Shown: piece by piece, positions 3,648 to 18,243 of the stretch | Numbering within the stretch: the first letter of the stretch is position 1 | Layout of the letters: the number at the start of each line of letters is the position of its first letter | From: a virus | DNA: 20,765 bases | Reading direction: 5' to 3' (one strand) | IMG/VR virus record: IMGVR_UViG_3300023116_004362 | Location: 1 to 20,765 of that record | Notes under the pieces: generated by a model | Told to the model about the DNA's origin: nothing | What the model saw: only the letters and a program-made list of their open reading frames with translations | Databases searched by the model: none | Made by a program: the position numbers and the translations under genes

Positions 3648-5348
3648 TTATTGTCCTCCTAGTTGAGCGAGTATATTTTGTGGTGTCGGAGCAGATACTG
3701 GTCCACCTTGTGGTGGTTGGCCCATCATTTCAGGCCCCATCATTTGCTCTGGCATTTCTGGTTCAGGAGAAGGCAACGGATTTTCAGATAACCATTCCCA
3801 AGGGTCTGTACCTTTTTCTATTGCTTGTCTCCATTGAATTAAATGATTTGTAACTGGCGTTGGTTGACCTGCACCAGTCATTTCAAAAATAATTGTTTCT
3901 AATCTATCAACCATAATTTTTCTACGAGTATCTGAAACTGATTTTATCCATGGCATTTGTTCCATAACTGTTTGTTCATCGATAAGACCTTGAGCAGATA
4001 ATTGCATAAGTTCAACAAAGCCTTCTGCTCCACCTACACCAACTCCAAAGTCGATTGACACAGAGTGTTGGCCATCGATTGTTTTATTTGGTGTGTAAGT
4101 TGTTTCAAAAGTTTCACCTTTACTTCTACCAGTCATTGGCTTAGTAAGATTGCCGTATAATTTTTCGTCCATGATTAAAGCACTTGATTTTAAGTATTCA
4201 ATATCTGGTTTCATTTTTTGCCAGTATTCTTGAACTGTTGAGGACACATCTCGATTTAATTCTTGTAGTCCTCTACCAGTTGCAACAGATGATGGGCTTT
4301 CGCCTCTCATTGGTTCTGTATCATGGTTCATTACTCGAATAAGTTGGTCTAACATTTCAATATCTCTTTCTGCCTGTAATTCAGCAGGAGGTGATAAAAA
4401 TTCAGCGGCACCATCTCTATCCATAATTTCTATAACACGATTAGTCTGGTCTACATTTGCAAGACCTCTCATGACTAACCATGGCCATACTAAATTTTCA
4501 TTGTAAGTTAATTTTTGATTTAACACCTTCATAAACGAAAGTACAAGTCCGATGTTTTGTTCAAACATTGATTGACCACCTAATTGGTCTGGTATTGTCA
4601 TTGTTGTATATCTCATTGGCACAAAACCAAGTCCGTGTTCTACTTCATACAATTTTCTATTTTCAAAAACTACTGTCCAATGTTCTTTATCAAAATAAGT
4701 TATCATTTTGAACGGTGATGATAATGGGTCACCATCGCCACCGATTTCTTTAATTAAATCTACTTTATCTGGAAACATACCTTTTACCATAGATAGGTTT
4801 ACGCTTTCATTAATGATGACTGCCTCCATACTTTGTGCTTGAACAATTGGTGTAGCCAATGTTGAGTAAGCAGTAGAAGTGTAAGAGCCTGAGCCTGCAC
4901 CTGGAAATGGTAATACTGTTCTTGGATCCTTTACAACAAATCGTGGACCTTTTGAAACTGGGTCTGGCATAACGCCAATACAACTTGCACCAGTACCAAC
5001 TAAGAACCAAGCGTATGAATACATAACTTGAGCCATGTTAGAAACCGTGTCATAGTGTGCTAAAACTTTTTCTACCTCGTCCGCATTTTTTTGTTGCTTA
5101 CGAGAAAGGTTAGCTGGAGTAACATGATGAGTTGGAATTTTACCAATCATACGAGCATATCTATCCCATGCTACTTTTATCCAGTTTGCAATAACAGGAT
5201 TTTCACCACGCCTAAATGCCTCAGGATAAACTTTTTGATAGTTGCCATGGTACACATCAATGAGGTTATCAAATCTTTTTTGAGCTGGACCCCAATATGT
5301 TTCACCGTGTTGTTTTAATTCTAAAATTTCATCTACTGATTTTTTCAA
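3648..5348 (-). CDS. Phage portal protein
   Basis: At 566 residues this has the usual size of a portal subunit of the SPP1 gp6-like broad family. Portals form the dodecameric ring at one head vertex through which DNA is packaged and ejected. Supporting features are the N-terminal helical segment with a WGPAQKRFDNL-type motif, the central alpha/beta body, the long helix-rich region around residues 270-390 (FEQNIGLVLSFMKVLNQKLTYN), and a Met/Pro/Gln-rich flexible tail from about residue 530. It lies two genes downstream of the terminase, the classic packaging order. Its start overlaps the end of the preceding 100-residue gene by 4 nt. The identification rests on pattern and synteny, not on a search. 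Confidence 0.85.
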   Translation of the reverse strand: MKKSVDEILELKQHGETYWGPAQKRFDNLIDVYHGNYQKVYPEAFRRGENPVIANWIKVAWDRYARMIGKIPTHHVTPANLSRKQQKNADEVEKVLAHYDTVSNMAQVMYSYAWFLVGTGASCIGVMPDPVSKGPRFVVKDPRTVLPFPGAGSGSYTSTAYSTLATPIVQAQSMEAVIINESVNLSMVKGMFPDKVDLIKEIGGDGDPLSSPFKMITYFDKEHWTVVFENRKLYEVEHGLGFVPMRYTTMTIPDQLGGQSMFEQNIGLVLSFMKVLNQKLTYNENLVWPWLVMRGLANVDQTNRVIEIMDRDGAAEFLSPPAELQAERDIEMLDQLIRVMNHDTEPMRGESPSSVATGRGLQELNRDVSSTVQEYWQKMKPDIEYLKSSALIMDEKLYGNLTKPMTGRSKGETFETTYTPNKTIDGQHSVSIDFGVGVGGAEGFVELMQLSAQGLIDEQTVMEQMPWIKSVSDTRRKIMVDRLETIIFEMTGAGQPTPVTNHLIQWRQAIEKGTDPWEWLSENPLPSPEPEMPEQMMGPEMMGQPPQGGPVSAPTPQNILAQLGGQ

Positions 5349-5647
5349 TTCAATACTCTTCCTTTAACCAAGCATGTAATATGCGAATGGCTATTACTAA
5401 CTATACCATATAATCTATCATCTGTCTTTCCAGTTAATGATTTTGTATCATCATAAGAAAATTCAAGAACATCACCTGAGTCCAATGGATAACCTTGTTT
5501 TATATCATTTGTCGTAGACACAACATTACTGTCACCAATATAAACAGTACCACTGCCTGTATTTTGTAAAATAAAACCAGGATACTCGGTACCGATAATT
5601 GCAGTAGCCGTAGTTTCTATTTGAGTTGTGTAATGTCTATGAGCCAC
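5345..5647 (-). CDS. Small beta-rich protein between terminase and portal (100 aa)
   Basis: The start ATG at 5647 overlaps the terminase end by 11 nt and the stop overlaps the portal start by 4 nt, so the three genes are translationally linked. The sequence is predicted to be mostly beta strands. It has the pattern TGSGTVYIGDSNVVST followed by a SGDVLEFSYDD stretch, reminiscent of small immunoglobulin-like or beta-sandwich head proteins. That makes a decoration, collar or head-completion protein the most natural guess. There is no signal peptide or membrane segment. The family is not firmly recognised. Confidence 0.75.
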   Translation of the reverse strand: MAHRHYTTQIETTATAIIGTEYPGFILQNTGSGTVYIGDSNVVSTTNDIKQGYPLDSGDVLEFSYDDTKSLTGKTDDRLYGIVSNSHSHITCLVKGRVLN

Positions 5648-7832
5648 GAATAATTCTCATGTTATCAGGCATAGTGTCTCCGTATGGGTGTTGTAGTTCC
5701 CGTTTTATATTTTTACCAACCTTTAGAGATGATGGTAGCGAATATCTATTGAAATGCAAGAACCAATGTCCCATAACCATGTCAGATGTCAAACCATCTG
5801 GATATTCCATTAGCTCTGTTTTAAATTCATTTACCACAACTCTTGTTTTTAAATCTTGGTCTGTGTATGGCAAATTGACTAGACCTTGTTTATATCTTGG
5901 TCCTAATGTTTCAACGCCATATTCAACATCTGTTTTATTTCGTGAGGTTTCGTGACCTTTAATCAAAGTTTTGTGTTTCGCCATCCATTCTTTTATAAAT
6001 TTATATTGTAGCAAATATCTCTGAGCGCCGTTTTGTTCTACTATCCAAAGTGCAATTGGCCATCCCATCTCTACACTTCTTTTTTGCCAGTCTTCCATTA
6101 TACCACGATACTGAGAAGTTTGTTTATTCCATTCCAAAAAATTACCTGCAGATAATCGAATACGAAGTAGGTCAATTAAATAATCTTTATCCTCTTGTGC
6201 ATTATATATCCACCATTGTATTGACCACCAATTATTTGCAGACGGGTCCACAGTTACAATCGAGTAACACTCATCTTTTGAAACATTTGGTATTTGTAAT
6301 AATTTTCTTTCATAGTCAAAACAACCTGGCAATAAAAATCCATCGTTGTCCATACCACCTGTTAGCCATACTTCTTTTACAAGGCTTGACACAGTTTCAT
6401 CATCTAACTGCTGGTAAGTCAATGCAAACTTACGCGGATCCGAGGCTTGAACTTTTTGTATGTGTCGAAAGGTAAATCGTTGTGGGTCTAATACACATTT
6501 GATATGGTCCTCGTTTTTTAATGAGTTTGGCGATTTACATTTGTCCTCATCGTGTGCTGGAAATCTGGCGTATCGATATATCGCTTGGCTTTTTCTTTCT
6601 GACAATTCATAATCCTCACCATACTTGTCGGCCATCAATTTTAGCGCCTCATCTTTGGCGGCTTGTATTTGTTCTGGCGTCATGTTGGCTGATACATTTT
6701 TCATTATCATTTCGTCCAAGTCATCATCAGTTGAATACACCAATTCTTTACAATGGCGGTATAAATCGTATTTACCAAATCGTGTACCGATTAATGCAAC
6801 AATACCACCTGGCTCACATCTGGATTCTGCCTCTGCGTGCCACCACTCAGTTAGACCTTCTCTTTGTTCAGCAGTTCTTGAGTTTGACCTATCGCACAAG
6901 TCGTCCCATAAGTTTACTTCAAAACGGCCACCAAGAAAACCCATATCTTGTGAAAGTGCAGAACATGTTGGTTCTTTTTCACCTGTTACGAACACAGAGG
7001 ATAGGGCATTTAATATATCATGTATCTCATCATTTGGATCCTCAAGTCTTTTTAACACTTCAGGATTCTCGGGGTCAAATCCAGCCATTGCTAATTTATA
7101 ATGCAAACTTGCCTCATGGCCTTGCACACCATCAACAACAAAGGCGTCTTTTCTCCAGAGTTCTGGCTCAACTGGTTTAAATCGTCCAAACTCCATATTT
7201 AACAAAACATTTTTTTCTAATGTGGTTCTTGCTCGGCGAACATACTTTTCACTTTGGCCTGTAGTTCTTGAGCCTAGGCCAATACGAATATTACGGTTTC
7301 TACATATCAGCCAAATCACAAAGTCGTGTGTAATGGTTGTTGTCTTACCTCCACCTGGCGGTGTATTGATTATGCCTTTTATCACTTCAGGAATATCGGC
7401 TTCTTTTGAGGCTTGACCCTCTCTTATCCAGTCCATAAGAATATCGCACATCTCAACTTGCCAGCCAACATGGCGTCTATTGAAATACCTTTGTCGAAAA
7501 TATGCGAAATCATTATATGCCCGTTTCGCGGCGTCATTGAGTTGTGCGTATTCTTTTGGTTCTGGAAAATCATGTTCAGAAGTTGAAATCTCACCTTTGT
7601 TCATCATCTCAGCCACTTCAAGTGGTGTCGATGATTTATGCGGAGTCGTGGCTTTCATGTTATCAAGCAATCGTTTTACTAACGAACGGCCCATACCCAT
7701 TAGCTCACCAGCTTGGTATGGGTTCATACCTTGTCGTACCTTTTCGTAAAAGAACTCTTTTATCTCAGGTTCATTATCGATGTGTTTACCACTCTCATGT
7801 TGTGGATAACTATTCTTTGCTTTCTTAGCCAT
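5637..7832 (-). CDS. Terminase large subunit with N-terminal helix-turn-helix
   Basis: This is the ATP-driven DNA packaging motor and headful or cohesive-end nuclease (731 aa). Walker A is TPPGGGKT at residues 157-164. A hydrophobic strand ending in Asp310-Asp311 (VNLWDD) fits Walker B with its catalytic acid. The ALIGTRFGK segment near 347-354 fits the coupling motif. The C-terminal RNase H-like nuclease has candidate metal-binding acids Asp529 (VTVDPS), Glu599 (IVEQNG) and Asp684. Residues ~25-60 form a putative helix-turn-helix (NPYQAGELMGMGRSLVKRLL) like those of small terminase subunits. The protein is longer than common TerL proteins, with roughly 150 residues between Walker A and B. 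The ATG at 7832 has no convincing ribosome-binding site. Confidence 0.93.
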   Translation of the reverse strand: MAKKAKNSYPQHESGKHIDNEPEIKEFFYEKVRQGMNPYQAGELMGMGRSLVKRLLDNMKATTPHKSSTPLEVAEMMNKGEISTSEHDFPEPKEYAQLNDAAKRAYNDFAYFRQRYFNRRHVGWQVEMCDILMDWIREGQASKEADIPEVIKGIINTPPGGGKTTTITHDFVIWLICRNRNIRIGLGSRTTGQSEKYVRRARTTLEKNVLLNMEFGRFKPVEPELWRKDAFVVDGVQGHEASLHYKLAMAGFDPENPEVLKRLEDPNDEIHDILNALSSVFVTGEKEPTCSALSQDMGFLGGRFEVNLWDDLCDRSNSRTAEQREGLTEWWHAEAESRCEPGGIVALIGTRFGKYDLYRHCKELVYSTDDDLDEMIMKNVSANMTPEQIQAAKDEALKLMADKYGEDYELSERKSQAIYRYARFPAHDEDKCKSPNSLKNEDHIKCVLDPQRFTFRHIQKVQASDPRKFALTYQQLDDETVSSLVKEVWLTGGMDNDGFLLPGCFDYERKLLQIPNVSKDECYSIVTVDPSANNWWSIQWWIYNAQEDKDYLIDLLRIRLSAGNFLEWNKQTSQYRGIMEDWQKRSVEMGWPIALWIVEQNGAQRYLLQYKFIKEWMAKHKTLIKGHETSRNKTDVEYGVETLGPRYKQGLVNLPYTDQDLKTRVVVNEFKTELMEYPDGLTSDMVMGHWFLHFNRYSLPSSLKVGKNIKRELQHPYGDTMPDNMRIIRGS

Positions 7833-7930: not shown

Positions 7931-8109
7931 TCTCACACTTTCTGCAAGTCAAAATCCAGGATACTCCCCGAGGCTGGTACAGTAGATGTGTGCTAAAAGA
8001 AATTTAAATGCTTAGTCAAAATGAATTTATCTACACTATTTTTTAGCTATAAATTAAAATTTTTTTTTCAAGCTCAATTCTTATCGAACTAAATTTATAA
8101 AAATAGTAC

Positions 8110-8136
8110 TTGCTTAGATTATGGAAATGATACAAT
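8110..8136 (+). promoter_or_regulatory. Candidate extended -10 promoter for the rightward early genes
   Basis: TGATACAAT at 8128-8136 fits an extended -10 element (TG-N-TANAAT). A partial -35 box, TTGCTT (8110-8115), lies 15 nt upstream. The same TG-N-TATAAT architecture recurs at 9432. Transcription would start near 8143, about 85 nt before the first small rightward gene. Confidence 0.45.
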
Positions 8137-8226
8137 TATATAAGAACACTTTTAGATAGTTAGATTTTAGCTAAATGTGTTCAGTATTTACTACGCTATA
8201 CTAAGCGAGAAAGGCAAGGTGATTTG

Positions 8227-8397
8227 ATGAGTAACTCATTAACTCCTAAGGTTTTAGCCGAGGAACTTCATGTTTCTCCTAAAACTCTACGAGCTTGGTT
8301 ACGAGCCAACGCTCCGCGTGAACTCGAGCAAAAATCTACTGCTTGGGCTATCACGCCAGCAGTGGCTAAAGCCGCTCGTAAACACTTCACACGATAA
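8227..8397 (+). CDS. Small helix-turn-helix DNA-binding protein (56 aa)
   Basis: The ATG at 8227 lies 9 nt after an AAAGGCAAGG Shine-Dalgarno region. The product is a single compact domain: an N-terminal TPKVLAEEL helix, the turn VSPKTL, the recognition-like helix RAWLRAN, and a C-terminal VAKAARKHFTR helix. In an ungapped alignment it matches the protein at 8987-9244 at 28 of 52 positions, so the two are paralogues. The pattern (L-R-x-W-x-R-x-N, then W-x-I/L-x, then V-x-K-A-A) faintly recalls the Lsr2 C-terminal DNA-binding domain, which I would not press. Its place at the head of the early region suits a regulator. It is too short to carry a dimerisation or effector domain. Confidence 0.75.
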   Translation: MSNSLTPKVLAEELHVSPKTLRAWLRANAPRELEQKSTAWAITPAVAKAARKHFTR

Positions 8398-8456
8398 ATA
8401 ATCAAGTCGTGTGTAATGTCCGTGTGTTTCTAACTACACTATGACAATAAACTATA

Positions 8457-8493
8457 GGTTAGAGTGTATCAAGTGTCGAGATACACTCTAACC
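8457..8493. repeat. Perfect 14-bp inverted repeat
   Basis: GGTTAGAGTGTATC at 8457-8470 is followed by a 9-nt loop and its exact reverse complement GATACACTCTAACC at 8480-8493. No T-tract follows; AGAAAGG, the next gene's Shine-Dalgarno sequence, comes 1-7 nt after the stem. It could be an operator, a recombination or replication site, or an RNA hairpin in the leader of the membrane peptide gene. Confidence 0.8.
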
Positions 8494-8506
8494 AGAAAGG
8501 TTAACT

Positions 8507-8587
8507 ATGTTTGAGTTAATCATGTGGAATATACTTATGTTCATACTAGGTGTTATAGTTGGCATACTCATATTCCGAGTTATATAA
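8507..8587 (+). CDS. 26-residue single-span membrane peptide
   Basis: The ATG at 8507 follows AGAAAGG with 6 nt spacing, a good ribosome-binding site. The product is almost entirely one hydrophobic helix (residues ~4-24, rich in Ile, Leu, Phe, Met and Val with a GVIVG stretch) ending in an Arg near the C-terminus. It is expected to insert into the inner membrane. Its position directly after a perfect 14-bp hairpin suggests regulated expression. Tiny phage membrane peptides can act in lysis timing, superinfection exclusion or host takeover. None of these can be assigned here, and the frame is short enough that chance remains possible. Confidence 0.5.
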   Translation: MFELIMWNILMFILGVIVGILIFRVI

Positions 8588-8600
8588 ATATAAATATGGG

Positions 8601-8795
8601 GGGCGGATCCTTGAGGGGGTCTGCTCTCCATTTTTTATTGCTTTATGCGGATCCTCAAGGTATTCACAATGCGGTTGGGGAATTAAGCGTTACGCGGTTC
8701 CTCATGGAATCAGTCTTGCGGTCGGGGCTACCCGGTTCCTCCAGGACCCCGCCATGCGGTTAATCCAAATCCCGAGCGTTTCCTAGAGGTTCCGC
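8601..8795. repeat. GC-rich GCGG repeat cluster with mini-hairpins (possible iterons or structured RNA)
   Basis: This stretch is far more GC-rich than its surroundings: 58 of 100 bases at 8661-8760 are G or C. GCGG (or CCGG) begins at 8603, 8647, 8671, 8694, 8718, 8732 and 8756, often 23-24 nt apart. A longer unit, GCGG(A/T)TCCT followed by a short loop and GG, occurs at 8603, 8647, 8694 and 8732, each able to form a tiny hairpin such as TTCC-TCAT-GGAA. CCTTGAGG (8609-8616) is complementary to CCTCAAGG (8653-8660). CGGGG at 8722-8726 pairs with CCCCG at 8747-8751. An inverted relative, GAGGTTCCGC, lies at 8786-8795. The two frames that cross it have no ribosome-binding sites. Origin iterons, a centromere-like site or a noncoding RNA are all possible. 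Confidence 0.6.
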
Positions 8796-8827
8796 CTAAG
8801 CACATCGGAGCTGCCATGTCAAATGAA

Positions 8828-8917
8828 AAAGCCACTATTTATATAGCCAATTTGACACAAATCAGCCATAATTTTTTGCACTCAATCCTGGAAAATACCA
8901 CACAAAATAGTGGCTTT
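8828..8917. repeat. 13-bp perfect inverted repeat flanking 64 nt
   Basis: AAAGCCACTATTT at 8828-8840 is repeated as its exact reverse complement at 8905-8917, with a 64-nt spacer holding TTGACA at 8852-8857. The arms lie upstream of the GTG start of the following DNA-binding protein, so this may be a paired operator site or the base of a long leader stem. Confidence 0.7.
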
Positions 8918-8986
8918 CCGAGTTGCATTGTGGATGCCAGTCTGTTTATAATGAAGTACCAAATAAATGAAAGCGAGGTGATATCC

Positions 8987-9244
8987 GTGAGTGCAAAGGC
9001 AGTAGCAGAGCCTAAAGTTCAGCCACAAGCTGAGCCAACAGGCGTTACACCTACAGACTTAGCCGAAATTCTAAGCGTAAGTCCTAAAAGTCTCCGTGCT
9101 TGGTTGCGTACCAATTACACAAGACCTTTAGACGCCAAAAATTCACGCTGGTATTTGCCTGATGATGTCGTAAAGGCAGCAACAGAGCATTATACCCGTA
9201 CCGTGAAAAAGAACGAAGGCAAAGCTAAAAAATCAGCCAAGTAG
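8987..9244 (+). CDS. Helix-turn-helix DNA-binding protein (85 aa), paralogue of the 8227 gene
   Basis: I place the start at the GTG at 8987 because GAGGTGAT ends 4 nt before it. The frame stays open upstream to an ATG at 8816, but that ATG lacks a ribosome-binding site and the extra 57 codons overlap an inverted repeat. The product has a variable Ala/Pro-rich N-terminus of ~25 residues, then a DNA-binding domain with VTPTDLAEIL, the turn VSPKSL, the helix RAWLRTN and the C-terminal helix DDVVKAATEHY, and a Lys-rich tail. It shares 28 of 52 aligned residues with the 56-residue protein. Together the pair bracket the 8457-8917 repeats, so they are the natural candidates for binding them. A terminator-like hairpin follows at once. 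Confidence 0.8.
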   Translation: MSAKAVAEPKVQPQAEPTGVTPTDLAEILSVSPKSLRAWLRTNYTRPLDAKNSRWYLPDDVVKAATEHYTRTVKKNEGKAKKSAK

Positions 9245-9300: not shown

Positions 9301-9431
9301 GCGGGCAGTATTGTGGTTCCAACTATTTTTACTTTTTTACGGTGGGCCCAAGGTAGGTCGAAGTAACTTATGCGGCCAGGCGTAATATCTCACCACTATT
9401 TTATTTATAGGTAGAAACCACATTTCCAGTC

Positions 9432-13693: not shown

Positions 13694-15601
13694 ATGGATA
13701 GCAAATTTTTAGACCGCGTAAGAGATACCGGTTCAGGCATTTCATTTTTACCATACATGAAAGACGGTGTATGGCATGAAAGAACTGCCGATGAGTTTTA
13801 TAGTAATCCGCCAGAAGGCGAATATGATTTGTATTTTTCCGTCTTAACATTTAAAACCAGCTCACGGAAAAGAGAAAACGCACTCCCAAATATGTGGTTG
13901 TGGGCAGACCTTGATGAAGTAAACCCTGCTGACATTGAGTTAAAGCCTACAATCGCATGGGAGAGCAGTAAAGGTAGATACCAATGTCTATGGCAATTAG
14001 AACATGGCGCCAGTGCTGAAACTTTAGAGCAGGCCAGTCGTGCATTAACATATAAAGTAGGTGCAGATAAAGGCGGTTGGTCTCGTACCAAAGTATTGCG
14101 TGTACCAGGCACCATGAATTACAAGTATGACCCACCACAACAAGTAAAATTATTGTGGGATAACGGCCCATTGTATATGATTGCAGATGTGTGGCAATTT
14201 ACTGGCCAGATTGATGAGAACAATAACCATGTTGAACCTGTCAATGATGAGATACCTACACCAGATGAAAACTATGACCAACTTTATGAGATAGCCTGGG
14301 ATTTACTTGATCCCCGCGGTCGTAGATTACTTAGCGCCAAAGAGGCATGGGGTGATAGGTCTGCAAGACTGTGGGAGCTTGAGTGTAGGTTACTTGAAAC
14401 AGGCTTAAGTAAGGAAAATGTATTTTTAATAGCCAAACAATCTGTGTGGAATAAACATGCAGATAAACCAAATGGAGATGAAGTTTTATGGCAAGAAATT
14501 GCAAAGGCAAGTTTGTCGGTATCAACTATGAACACTAGTGCCTCCAACAACGCAAGTGAAGTTGATACCGCACCTATTTATAGAAAAGTGAAACCAACGC
14601 TTGTTACTTATGGTGACTTGCTTGGCTCACAGATAGCAGAGCCACAATGGCTAATACAAGATTGGTGGACTATGGGTAGTCATGGCATTATTGCTGGTCT
14701 ACCGAAATCTTATAAGTCTTTGGTAACTACAGACATGGCGTTATCAGTGGCAACTGGTACACCATTTATGAATATGTACGAGGTCAATGAGAAGGGGATA
14801 GGTCCAACTCTGGTTGTTCAAGTCGAAAACTCTCCAGCCCTTCTCAAAGACCGAGTTGTAAAGATGGCATACAATAAAGGTTTATTACATGGAGCAAGTC
14901 ATATTGATGACGGTACTTTGTCAGTTACATTTCCAACTCAAGTACCTATGTTCTTTTACAATGATTTCGCCTTTGACATGACCGATGAGGCATGTAGACA
15001 GGCGATTGAAACGATAATAGTCCAAGAAGGCATACGCATGGTTGTGTTTGACCCATTATATTTGATGATGGGATCCGTAGATGAAAACTCTGCCCACGAA
15101 ATACGCCCGATACTTTCTTGGTTATTACAACTTAGGAACTACTACAACATAGCCGTAATAGTAGTTCACCACTGGGGCAAAGGCTCAAGTGATAGAAAAG
15201 GTAGAAAACAAGGCGGTGTAAAGTTGCTTGGTTCTACAACAATCTATGGTTGGTTAGAGAGTGCTTTGTATTTAGAGGCGTCTCCAAATACTGATGGCTC
15301 ATCAACTGTAGTGGTAGAGCGTGAATTTAGAGAGAGGTTAGCGCCTCCACCACAAGCCTTTAAACTCAGAATGGGTGATATAGGTGAGATTGATTATGCG
15401 TGGGAAGGTGAAGGTGTAGTCGGTACTGAGGCTAACATTTTCAACCTTCTTACGCAAAAGCCAATGTCAATGACCGAGTTACAAGCGGCAAGTGGCATGG
15501 GTGAAAAGAAAACAAGAGCCTTGCTTACCAAGTTGTTAGCCGATGGTGCTATCACAATGGAGCAAGAAGGCAAAAGCAAGGTATTTCGATTAGCTAAATG
15601 A
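13694..15601 (+). CDS. Primase-polymerase / RecA-like helicase fusion
   Basis: The ATG at 13694 follows AGAGGAGAGTTT. The 635-residue protein has three parts. Residues ~1-160 resemble a RepB-type archaeo-eukaryotic primase, with the catalytic acidic pair Asp72/Asp74 (WADLDEVNP), the SSKGRYQCLW strand (91-100) and GGWSRTKVLRVPGT (127-140). Residues ~300-560 form a RepA/DnaB-like RecA-fold ATPase with Walker A GLPKSYKS (335-342), Walker B ending in Asp453 (VVFDP) and a His492-His493 pair in VVHHWGKG. Residues ~575-635 form a winged helix (MTELQAASGMGEKKTRALLTKLL). It probably primes and unwinds phage DNA. The primase call rests on motifs only; the usual catalytic His position is Gln here. No partner DNA polymerase is in the window. 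Confidence 0.85.
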   Translation: MDSKFLDRVRDTGSGISFLPYMKDGVWHERTADEFYSNPPEGEYDLYFSVLTFKTSSRKRENALPNMWLWADLDEVNPADIELKPTIAWESSKGRYQCLWQLEHGASAETLEQASRALTYKVGADKGGWSRTKVLRVPGTMNYKYDPPQQVKLLWDNGPLYMIADVWQFTGQIDENNNHVEPVNDEIPTPDENYDQLYEIAWDLLDPRGRRLLSAKEAWGDRSARLWELECRLLETGLSKENVFLIAKQSVWNKHADKPNGDEVLWQEIAKASLSVSTMNTSASNNASEVDTAPIYRKVKPTLVTYGDLLGSQIAEPQWLIQDWWTMGSHGIIAGLPKSYKSLVTTDMALSVATGTPFMNMYEVNEKGIGPTLVVQVENSPALLKDRVVKMAYNKGLLHGASHIDDGTLSVTFPTQVPMFFYNDFAFDMTDEACRQAIETIIVQEGIRMVVFDPLYLMMGSVDENSAHEIRPILSWLLQLRNYYNIAVIVVHHWGKGSSDRKGRKQGGVKLLGSTTIYGWLESALYLEASPNTDGSSTVVVEREFRERLAPPPQAFKLRMGDIGEIDYAWEGEGVVGTEANIFNLLTQKPMSMTELQAASGMGEKKTRALLTKLLADGAITMEQEGKSKVFRLAK

Positions 15602-16363: not shown

Positions 16364-16790
16364 ATTATCAATCGGCGGAGCAACGCTATTCGCCTCATTT
16401 GAGTGGGATAGCACAGACACCCGATTAATCTTTCATACGGTTCTGAAAAAGTATGCAGAAAACGAGGACCAAAATGAACATTGGGCTAACAGTCGATTTT
16501 TATTTGGCTTTACTGAAAGTTTATTTCCTTGGTTTTCATATACACCAGGTGCGATGTGGGATTGTATGAAATGGTTAATACAAGACCTTAGCGAATACTA
16601 CCATCGATATGGTAAGAGCGGTCGTGTTGCCCACATAGAAATGAAAATAAACCAGATTTGTTTTCAAATGTGGTACGACATCTTGGTAAAAAACTGTGGC
16701 GATAAAGCCCAAACTGTAACCTATTTATTAGAGGAGTTTGAGAAGTATGGAATATCAATTCAAGACAACACCATACCAACATCAGAGTGA
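16320..16790 (+). CDS. Unknown replication-region protein (156 aa)
   Basis: The ATG at 16320 follows AGAAAGGGTCATT, a good Shine-Dalgarno sequence. The product is aromatic-rich: FASFEWDSTDTRLIFHTV near the start, a FTESLFPWFSY stretch in the middle and EMKINQICFQMWYDILV later. It overlaps its upstream neighbour and the following helicase by 44 nt each. No motif is recognised. The unusual length of both overlaps suggests tight co-translation with the helicase. Confidence 0.7.
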   Translation: MPYQNQADKTKQPYRLSIGGATLFASFEWDSTDTRLIFHTVLKKYAENEDQNEHWANSRFLFGFTESLFPWFSYTPGAMWDCMKWLIQDLSEYYHRYGKSGRVAHIEMKINQICFQMWYDILVKNCGDKAQTVTYLLEEFEKYGISIQDNTIPTSE

Positions 16791-18243
16791 GGCTCTAAAA
16801 AGAGTATTTAATTCGGACAAGGGTCATGCTCTTTTCATGGATCCAGGTACTGGCAAGACTAAAATTGCAGTGGACAGTATCGCGGCCTTTCAGTTATCTG
16901 GAAAAGTGAAAAGAGTATTGGTCCTTTGTCCAATAAATGCTCTTACAGTATGGCCAAAAGAATTAAACAATCACTCACCGGTGCCTTTCACCTCGTTTGT
17001 GCGGCCAGAAACAGGCACAATCGTAGATAAAGTAGAAGGTTTTAATGAGTGGATTGAAAGTTGTAGCGTACCATTTGAAATGCCATTACAAATAGCGGTG
17101 TTTAATTATGAAAGCCTTATTAGTAGAAACAATAAAGCACCATTATTTGATAGGCTAATGAAATGGAAACCCGACATGGTTATATTAGATGAAAGCCAGA
17201 AAATAAAATCAGCTACCGCAAAGAGAAGTAAGCAGGCCCACAAGATTTGTGCTACGGCTAAATATACTTTGCTGATGACTGGTACACCAGTCGGTAAAAA
17301 CTTATTAGATTTATATAGCCAGCTTAAATGTATCAATCCAGAAATATGGGATAACATAAGTTGGACAGATTTTAAATACAAGTATGGTATCTGGGGTGGC
17401 AGGTCAGGCTATGAACTTCAAGGTTATCGTATGGTTGATGACTTAGAGAGGCGTTATTCTCCCTATGTTTCTAGCGCCAGAAAAGAGGATTGCTTAGACT
17501 TGCCCCCAGTTACCGATATAAATGTAGATGTACGCTGGGATCCACAATCGTTTGCCAGTTACGAAAGATTTAGCAAAGATGGTATGGTAGTTCATAAACG
17601 CCACATGATTTATGCACCTATTGTGTTAACCAAGTTACTTCGGTTACAAGAGATGACTGGTTACCAAGTGCATGATGAAGAAGGTAATCCTGTGGTGTTC
17701 AATGAGAATAAACTTATCCATACTGTTGACCTTGTAGATAATTTAAGCGAGGCCGGCGAGCCCGTAATTATCTTTGCAAGGTTTAAAAGTGAAATTGCCG
17801 AATTACAAAAGGCATTTGCTACACCTTACTTAATTAAAGGTGGAGTAACTGCTAAACAACGAGGCGAACTCATTGACAAATGGCTAAAGAATAACGGTGA
17901 TAAACCATTTATAATTCAGATACAAAGTGCTGAGGCTTTAGATGGTTTACAGAGAATATGTTCCAAAGCTATATTCTATTCCACAGATTATAGTTGGATA
18001 AATTATTTTCAGGCTAGAGGTCGAATAGATAGAGAAGGACAAACTAAGCCAATTATATTTTACCACATGTGTATGACCGAGTCCATTGATTACTTAGTGC
18101 TTGAGGCATTAAAAGAAAAGAAGGACTTAGAGAAAATGGTAAAAGATAACCCGGCTTTGTTAGTTGTTTCACGAGCCAGTTATGATAAAATAAAAAAAGA
18201 CAAAAAAATAAAAGAGGAGGATAGTATAAATGATAATACTTGA
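16747..18243 (+). CDS. SNF2-family superfamily 2 DNA helicase/translocase
   Basis: I start at the ATG at 16747 (498 aa), 10 nt after GAGGAG; an in-frame TTG at 16738 has no spacing for a ribosome-binding site. The N-terminal YQHQ (residues 10-13) fits the Q/Ia position. Motif I is MDPGTGKT (31-38), motif II DESQ (148-151) and motif III TGTP (178-181). The C-terminal RecA lobe has VIIFARFK and motif VI QARGRIDREGQ (422-432), the SNF2 signature. Such phage helicases remodel DNA-protein complexes or aid replication and recombination. The C-terminal 30 residues are Lys-rich. The stop overlaps the kinase gene start by 14 nt. Confidence 0.92.
   Translation: MEYQFKTTPYQHQSEALKRVFNSDKGHALFMDPGTGKTKIAVDSIAAFQLSGKVKRVLVLCPINALTVWPKELNNHSPVPFTSFVRPETGTIVDKVEGFNEWIESCSVPFEMPLQIAVFNYESLISRNNKAPLFDRLMKWKPDMVILDESQKIKSATAKRSKQAHKICATAKYTLLMTGTPVGKNLLDLYSQLKCINPEIWDNISWTDFKYKYGIWGGRSGYELQGYRMVDDLERRYSPYVSSARKEDCLDLPPVTDINVDVRWDPQSFASYERFSKDGMVVHKRHMIYAPIVLTKLLRLQEMTGYQVHDEEGNPVVFNENKLIHTVDLVDNLSEAGEPVIIFARFKSEIAELQKAFATPYLIKGGVTAKQRGELIDKWLKNNGDKPFIIQIQSAEALDGLQRICSKAIFYSTDYSWINYFQARGRIDREGQTKPIIFYHMCMTESIDYLVLEALKEKKDLEKMVKDNPALLVVSRASYDKIKKDKKIKEEDSINDNT

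Follow-up and report, generated by a model that had tools for sequence, protein, structure and literature searches.

A GC-rich locus between two paralogous MerR-like genes of an uncultured phage: a terminator and a repeat array that may be bound by protein

The window analysed here, called W below (20,765 bp, 38.6% GC), covers part of the genome of an uncultured dsDNA phage. The gene of the large terminase (TerL) and, behind it, that of the probable portal run leftward; the latter is assigned by its 566-aa length and its position, without a family match. Rightward, HTH1 is followed in order by a micropeptide, the region 8601-8795, HTH2, small ORFs and the replication genes (Table 1). The nearest of the long relatives, G001 (the same as L003, about 47.2–47.3 kb), encodes Pol A, Sak4 and an exonuclease. 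Its record is classed as linear; the contig ends (L037 start, L039 end) overlap by about 110 nt, so that G001 is probably a complete circular map. Among 50,697 records of named phages there is no DNA, TerL or HTH2 match to W, and the primase-helicase is the only W protein with relatives, which are distant. No relative of the W terminase was found in prokaryote genomes, and a tRNA/tmRNA search returned none. An integrase was matched neither in the window nor in near relatives including G001, only in the very distant G007, and no attachment site was recognised. Between TerL and HTH1, the word CCAGGATACTCCCCGAGGCTGGTACAGTA (7955-7985) is strongly conserved and still discernible in L005.

Table 1. 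Features of the locus and its surroundings, in window coordinates.
Feature	Position	Strand or direction	Remarks
Probable portal	3648-5348	leftward	behind TerL
TerL (large terminase)	5637-7832	leftward	
HTH1	8227-8397	+	56–57 aa, DNA-binding domain only, MerR-like predicted fold
Intercistronic hairpin	8457-8494	+	perfect 14-bp stem, between HTH1 and micropeptide
Transmembrane-type micropeptide MFELIMWNILMFILGVIVGILIFRVI	8507-8587	+	26 aa, hydrophobic
P1, intrinsic terminator	8596-8637	+	16-bp stem and T-run, made of GGWWCC motif
GGWWCC-type core GGATCCTTGAGG	8605-8616		inside P1
P2, repeat array	8640-8801		three composite units of about 38–47 bp and a terminal site
Core GGATCCTCAAGG	8649-8660		P2
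Core GGTTCCTCATGG	8696-8707		P2
Core GGTTCCTCCAGG	8734-8745		P2
Core GTTTCCTAGAGG of terminal site GTTTCCTAGAGGTTCCGCC	8778-8789		P2; from alignments
Inverted repeat AAAGCCACTATTT (8828-8840) / AAATAGTGGCTTT (8905-8917)	8828-8917		13-bp, perfect; from sequence
HTH2 promoter, sigma70-type, TTGCAT-18-TATAAT	8923-8952	+	invariant TTGC...TATAAT columns in seven aligned sequences
HTH2	8987-9244	+	85 aa, paralogue of HTH1
Second, smaller element	9315-9396		after HTH2; shares words GGTTCC and ATGCGGCCAGGC; also contains TGGGCCCA
RepB-like primase-helicase	13694-15601		rightward side
SNF2-type helicase	16738-18243		rightward side

A reading made earlier from the sequence alone had placed the region between two DNA-binding genes. 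These are indeed paralogous HTH genes: the HTH2 of L003 is 53% identical to the HTH1 of W. Both products give weak MerR/HTH_17 matches (Pfam MerR for HTH1, E 4e-4), and the relatives conserve HTH1 as the gene with which the cassette begins. The AlphaFold2 model of HTH1 (pLDDT 80) has RacA, BldC, pSK1 Par, phage packaging proteins and Xis as nearest solved folds, all with E ≥ 0.1, and that of HTH2 (pLDDT 71) has RacA, pSK1 Par, BldC and Xis, with E ≥ 0.2. The match probabilities reach 0.99, with E-values of at least 0.1; the likeness suggested by the models is one of fold and no proof of homology. The DNA-binding domains nearest to both models are those of RacA (5i44, by its title a RacA-DNA complex) and pSK1 Par (8csh, likewise by its title a partition-protein domain on centromere DNA). 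Hydrophobic micropeptides of 23–29 aa also follow HTH1 in L007, L004, L010, L060 and the very distant L094. The micropeptide is lost in L003, and a longer charged ORF takes its place in G004. The hairpin upstream of the micropeptide forms again, from different sequence, as a perfect or near-perfect stem in L003, L005, L007 and L094; it is equally strong in L003, L005 and L094 and weaker in L007 and L010, a pattern that looks like compensatory change.

The region 8601-8795 is the richest in GC of the whole window (0.549 vs 0.386), and its best 180-nt stretch (0.56) is the window maximum (z 4.0); the value near 58% given in the sequence-only reading was too high. The seven GCGG or CCGG starts described there, several of them 23–24 nt apart, are present: six are GCGG (8603, 8647, 8671, 8694, 8718 and 8756) and one is CCGG (8732), with successive spacings of 44, 24, 23, 24, 14 and 24 nt. 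GCGG(A/T)TCCT, for which four copies had been counted, occurs exactly at 8603, 8647 and 8694, the fourth copy being CCGGTTCCT at 8732. These words are far more frequent than in dinucleotide shuffles: (G/C)CGG(A/T)TCCT is found 4 times vs 0.01 expected (0 of 5000 shuffles reached 4), GG(A/T)TCC 5 times vs 0.35 (0 of 5000 reached 5) and GCGG 6 times vs 1.5 (P 0.001). Each motif copy makes up one half of a quasi-palindrome, GGWWCC-TNNA-GG, hence the tiny hairpins that had been attributed to each copy; the first of them, however, is a 16-bp terminator stem with a T-run. The region, which had been viewed as a single element, thus cuts across two different ones, and its front is a terminator that had been missed.

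This first element, P1, is a rho-independent terminator which ends the HTH1/micropeptide operon and is conserved in relatives. Its stem of 16 bp, capped by a loop of 4 nt (8596-8631), leads into the tail TTTTTATTGC. P1 has the longest stem of the terminator-like sites between 7800 and 9500; the region holds six such sites, vs 1.3 in shuffles. As in intrinsic terminators generally, the GC-rich stem and T-run of P1 come behind the final gene of an operon. In L003, L007, L004 and L010, other sequences at the same position still pair and end in T-runs. The GGWWCC words that make up the arms of the stem are those of the array, too.

In the second element, P2, each unit has a GGWWCCTNNAGG site and then, at a distance of 22 bp from where its GGWTCC starts, TGCGGY: from the starts at 8649, 8696 and 8734, GCGG lies exactly 22 bp on, at 8671, 8718 and 8756. 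In L003, L007, L004 and L010, no block is better conserved than the core of the terminal site. Direct 6-mer repeats are enriched in 10 of 10 arrays (z 2.4–9.7), while the enrichment of inverted 6-mer repeats in the same arrays is inconsistent (z −1.6 to 4.5). The operator-like inverted repeat 8828-8917 lies between the array and the HTH2 promoter, upstream of the latter. The smaller element after HTH2 is conserved in L003, and a CGATACGGTGAGCC element occupies the equivalent place in L007, L004 and L010. A gene across the array was considered and rejected, as none of the frames stays consistently open among the relatives. When six frames were tested between W and L001, one had a slight excess of synonymous changes (P 0.016), which was not upheld elsewhere.

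The relatives were collected with TerL, HTH1 and HTH2 as probes. Lack of conservation in related phages had been among the observations that would speak against the sequence-only reading; the position of the element is in fact kept in at least nine lineages, L094 included. The array comes directly after HTH1 in nine further contigs from about eight lineages (TerL 48–88% identical) and in a tenth, much more distant phage. The full cassette, from HTH1 through the micropeptide (not always present), terminator, GC-rich array and promoter to HTH2, is found in L001, L013, L003/L011, L007, L004 and L010. HTH1 followed by the array is found in W, L003, L007, L004, L010, L027, G004/L032, G003/L034, L060 and L062; in L027, the sequence immediately behind the array gave no recognisable HTH2 homologue. 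L094 has HTH1, a micropeptide, a terminator, a shorter GC-rich repeat element and HTH2 in the same order, and the contig of L005 ends soon after HTH1, so that it is no evidence for absence of the array. Along the available sequence, GC content peaks at the array in W, G001, G003, G004, L007, L004, L010 and L011, with L027/G002 as the exception. Its motif differs between clades: the arrays further out (L027, G004/L032, G003/L034, L060 and L062) carry other words, for example ATGGCC in L027 and GGAGGTCCTCC and GGCGTCC in G004/L032. The sequence of the motif changes from clade to clade, and the architecture stays.

Between near-identical phages, the array is a hotspot of divergence. W aligns with L001 over 12.3 kb at 99.4% identity, yet 15 of the 162 positions of P2 differ. 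All 15 substitutions spare the four GGWWCCTNNAGG cores and the five GCGG words, which together take up 64 of the 162 nt (P 0.0003), and all 12 between L007 and L004 spare the GGWWCC words (P 0.048). Repetition and consensus served to define the cores, but this was done when the substitutions were already known, so both P values are only indicative. One change in L013 (8786) is inside the terminal core. Conversely, RCGGYNAG-type words differ in three of three cases between W and L001, while HTH1, and HTH2 over the stretch searched, are identical or nearly so. That half-unit is therefore probably not read by HTH1 or HTH2; CGGYNAG-type words, if they are read at all, are read by another factor or tolerate change. 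The other hotspot of difference between W and L001, at 8000-8250, has 15 differences, as P2 does, and both hotspots resemble an immunity or specificity region.

Autocorrelation summed over the arrays, a sum that includes L007 and L004, near relatives of each other, peaks at lags 11 and 10 and also at 21 and 31; lag 3 scores too. A finer scan of nine arrays has its maximum at 10.0–10.1 bp (combined z 4.9), about one DNA turn. Random windows of the same genomes give a period score of about 0 on average, with single windows up to 3.7. The period is carried by L027, L032, L034, L060 and L062 (best periods 9.7–10.2 bp) and is absent from the arrays of W (spacings 24, 23, 24 and 14), L003 and L010; this phasing thus belongs to the distant members of the group, not to the window.

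We propose that the region consists of a terminator followed by a DNA array, P2, that would serve as a multi-site platform for HTH1 and/or HTH2; we put the probability of this reading, in which the binding is what we infer, at roughly 0.45. Transcription from the HTH1 promoter would end at P1. In P2, quasi-palindromic GGWWCC-type sites alternate with TGCGGY sites. HTH1 and/or HTH2 would load cooperatively on the array and the adjoining sites and coat them head-to-tail, with occupancy tuned by the number and spacing of the sites. The bound protein might control, by feedback, both the divergent HTH1/TerL promoters and the HTH2 promoter, and the bound array might insulate the two early transcription units from each other. 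A further role of this complex might be to label the DNA of the phage for its replication or segregation.

A structured RNA had been one of the options of the sequence-only reading. It would consist of the P1 hairpin and a multibranched P2 closed by 8640-8660 / 8782-8801, made by rightward read-through from the HTH1 operon. The high GC content within an AT-rich genome is in its favour, as are the fold of the plus strand (−92 kcal/mol, z −3.7, 0 of 200 shuffles) and the substitutions between W and L001, all 15 of which together preserve this fold better than random ones do (P 0.043 for pairs, 0.001 for energy). For P2, the plus-strand z is also low in W (−3.2), L001 (−3.5), L013 (−3.3) and L007 (−3.2), but it is 0.3 in L003, −0.9 in L004, −1.7 in L010, −1.0 in L027, −2.3 in L032 and −2.0 in L034. 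The minus strand folds equally well or better in L004 (−2.4), L010 (−2.1), L027 (−1.9), L032 (−3.6) and L034 (−3.8), the other values being −1.9 in W, −2.5 in L001, −2.2 in L013, 0.3 in L003 and −2.6 in L007. Neither strand is consistently favoured, which fits repeat-rich DNA and not one RNA. RNAalifold found no covariation on either strand in what is a weak test, with about four W-type lineages (consensus about −7 kcal/mol, covariation term +0.25), and Rfam gave no match at the gathering threshold and only chance hits at relaxed E-values. Moreover, the array sits behind a strong terminator, with scarcely any space for a promoter between. The RNA option is thus weakened, and we regard it as unlikely. 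The other proposal made from the sequence, iterons or a partition site, fares better in that a protein-bound DNA array fits the direct repeats, the conserved cores and the phasing of about 10 bp in distant relatives. A classic ParABS system is not supported, because a ParA-type ATPase (PF13614) is absent from eight of eight records, several of them fragments, with positive controls. Single-protein partition systems such as pSK1 Par need no such ATPase.

As for iterons proper, the array would bind an initiator and the 21%-GC stretch 8001-8200 would unwind. This very AT-rich neighbour, the spacing of 24/23/24 and a minimum of the cumulative GC skew at about 8200-8400 are all as expected of an origin. 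The skew, suggested earlier as a check, is confounded with transcription direction: its switch coincides with divergent transcription, which is a sufficient explanation alone. No iteron-binding Rep initiator was found, and the RepB-like primase-helicase is encoded well away (Table 1), so that an origin here seems distinctly improbable. Much the same can be said of a packaging site of the pac or cosB type, for which HTH1 would be a minimal DNA-binding protein resembling a small terminase subunit. The gene next door, in divergent orientation, encodes TerL, the G001 families listed (the first 25 of 94) include no small terminase, a viral DNA-packaging protein domain (7lwr, 7lw0) is among the fold neighbours of HTH1, and some members give weak matches to small-terminase PHROGs. 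Sites of the cosB type are repeat arrays as well; lambda cosB, near the terminase genes, has repeat sites bound by gpNu1, a MerR-like wHTH protein. HTH1, however, is a bare 56-aa domain without an oligomerisation region or the rest of a terminase small subunit, and the operon it belongs to runs rightward and is probably early. Every contig continues across the array, and the overlapping ends through which G001 becomes circular lie elsewhere; a fixed, cos-type genome end at the array is thus improbable, whereas a headful pac site, whose start contigs do not map, is still compatible with this. An ordinary terminator followed by a drifting, non-functional spacer, with repeats born by slippage, would account for the fast divergence and for a unit of 20 nt that L004 has gained when compared with L007; it is poorly compatible with the constrained cores, the place and GC maximum kept across lineages and the phased periodicity, and we consider it distinctly improbable as well. 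It is a long shot, finally, that the cassette is a minimal, ATPase-free DNA-anchoring or segregation system of lytic phages, in which proteins would coat the array, the micropeptide would tie replicating DNA to the membrane and the fast-changing array would set specificity.

The array locus matches no family searched, and the platform proposed for HTH1 and/or HTH2 has its closest parallels in other proteins. BldC from Streptomyces, a MerR-like protein made of a DNA-binding domain only, lines up head-to-tail on 9-bp direct repeats whose number varies from site to site (PMC5859096). Its sites resemble those of P2 in that directional direct repeats, variable in number, would be read by a DNA-binding-domain-only protein, with about one protein per turn. 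They differ in that BldC sites are 9-bp AATTXXXX(C) repeats, whereas here the motif is GC-rich, its spacing in W is 23–24 bp and two paralogues flank a long array. P2 thus does not show the AATT(N4)C-type repeats of about 9 bp that characterise operators of BldC: its repeats are direct, but the period of about 10 bp is seen only in distant relatives. BldC resembles HTH1 and HTH2 at the level of the modelled fold only (E ≥ 0.2), and head-to-tail binding is a proposal here. HTH1 and HTH2 differ from RacA and pSK1 Par by being without a coiled-coil or anchoring domain. RdfS binds DNA as head-to-tail multimers of variable length (PMC11963761). Together with the Xis of phage Pukovnik, it provides an example of small phage or ICE wHTH proteins which coat DNA head-to-tail (PMC11963761); in contrast to these, W and its near relatives have no integrase match and no recognised attachment site. 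The SAS/ESAS of Cluster K mycobacteriophages and the stoperators of Cluster A are lineage-specific repeated motifs dispersed over the genome, with SAS at start codons (PMC3203893). Like them, the repeats described here are lineage-specific; unlike them, they form one dense array at a fixed place.

The locus is real and conserved in place, partly ordinary (the terminator) and partly unexplained (the array). A non-coding element that stays where it is and retains its architecture even as its sequence is replaced, across phages whose TerL proteins are only about half identical, marks a functional locus. Should bare MerR-like domains indeed use the array as a platform, array binding of the BldC, RacA and Par type would extend to apparently lytic phages, and this hotspot of divergence would lend itself to the study of protein-DNA specificity. 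The array is also a candidate early regulatory centre, or a candidate packaging or segregation site, of this group of uncultured phages.
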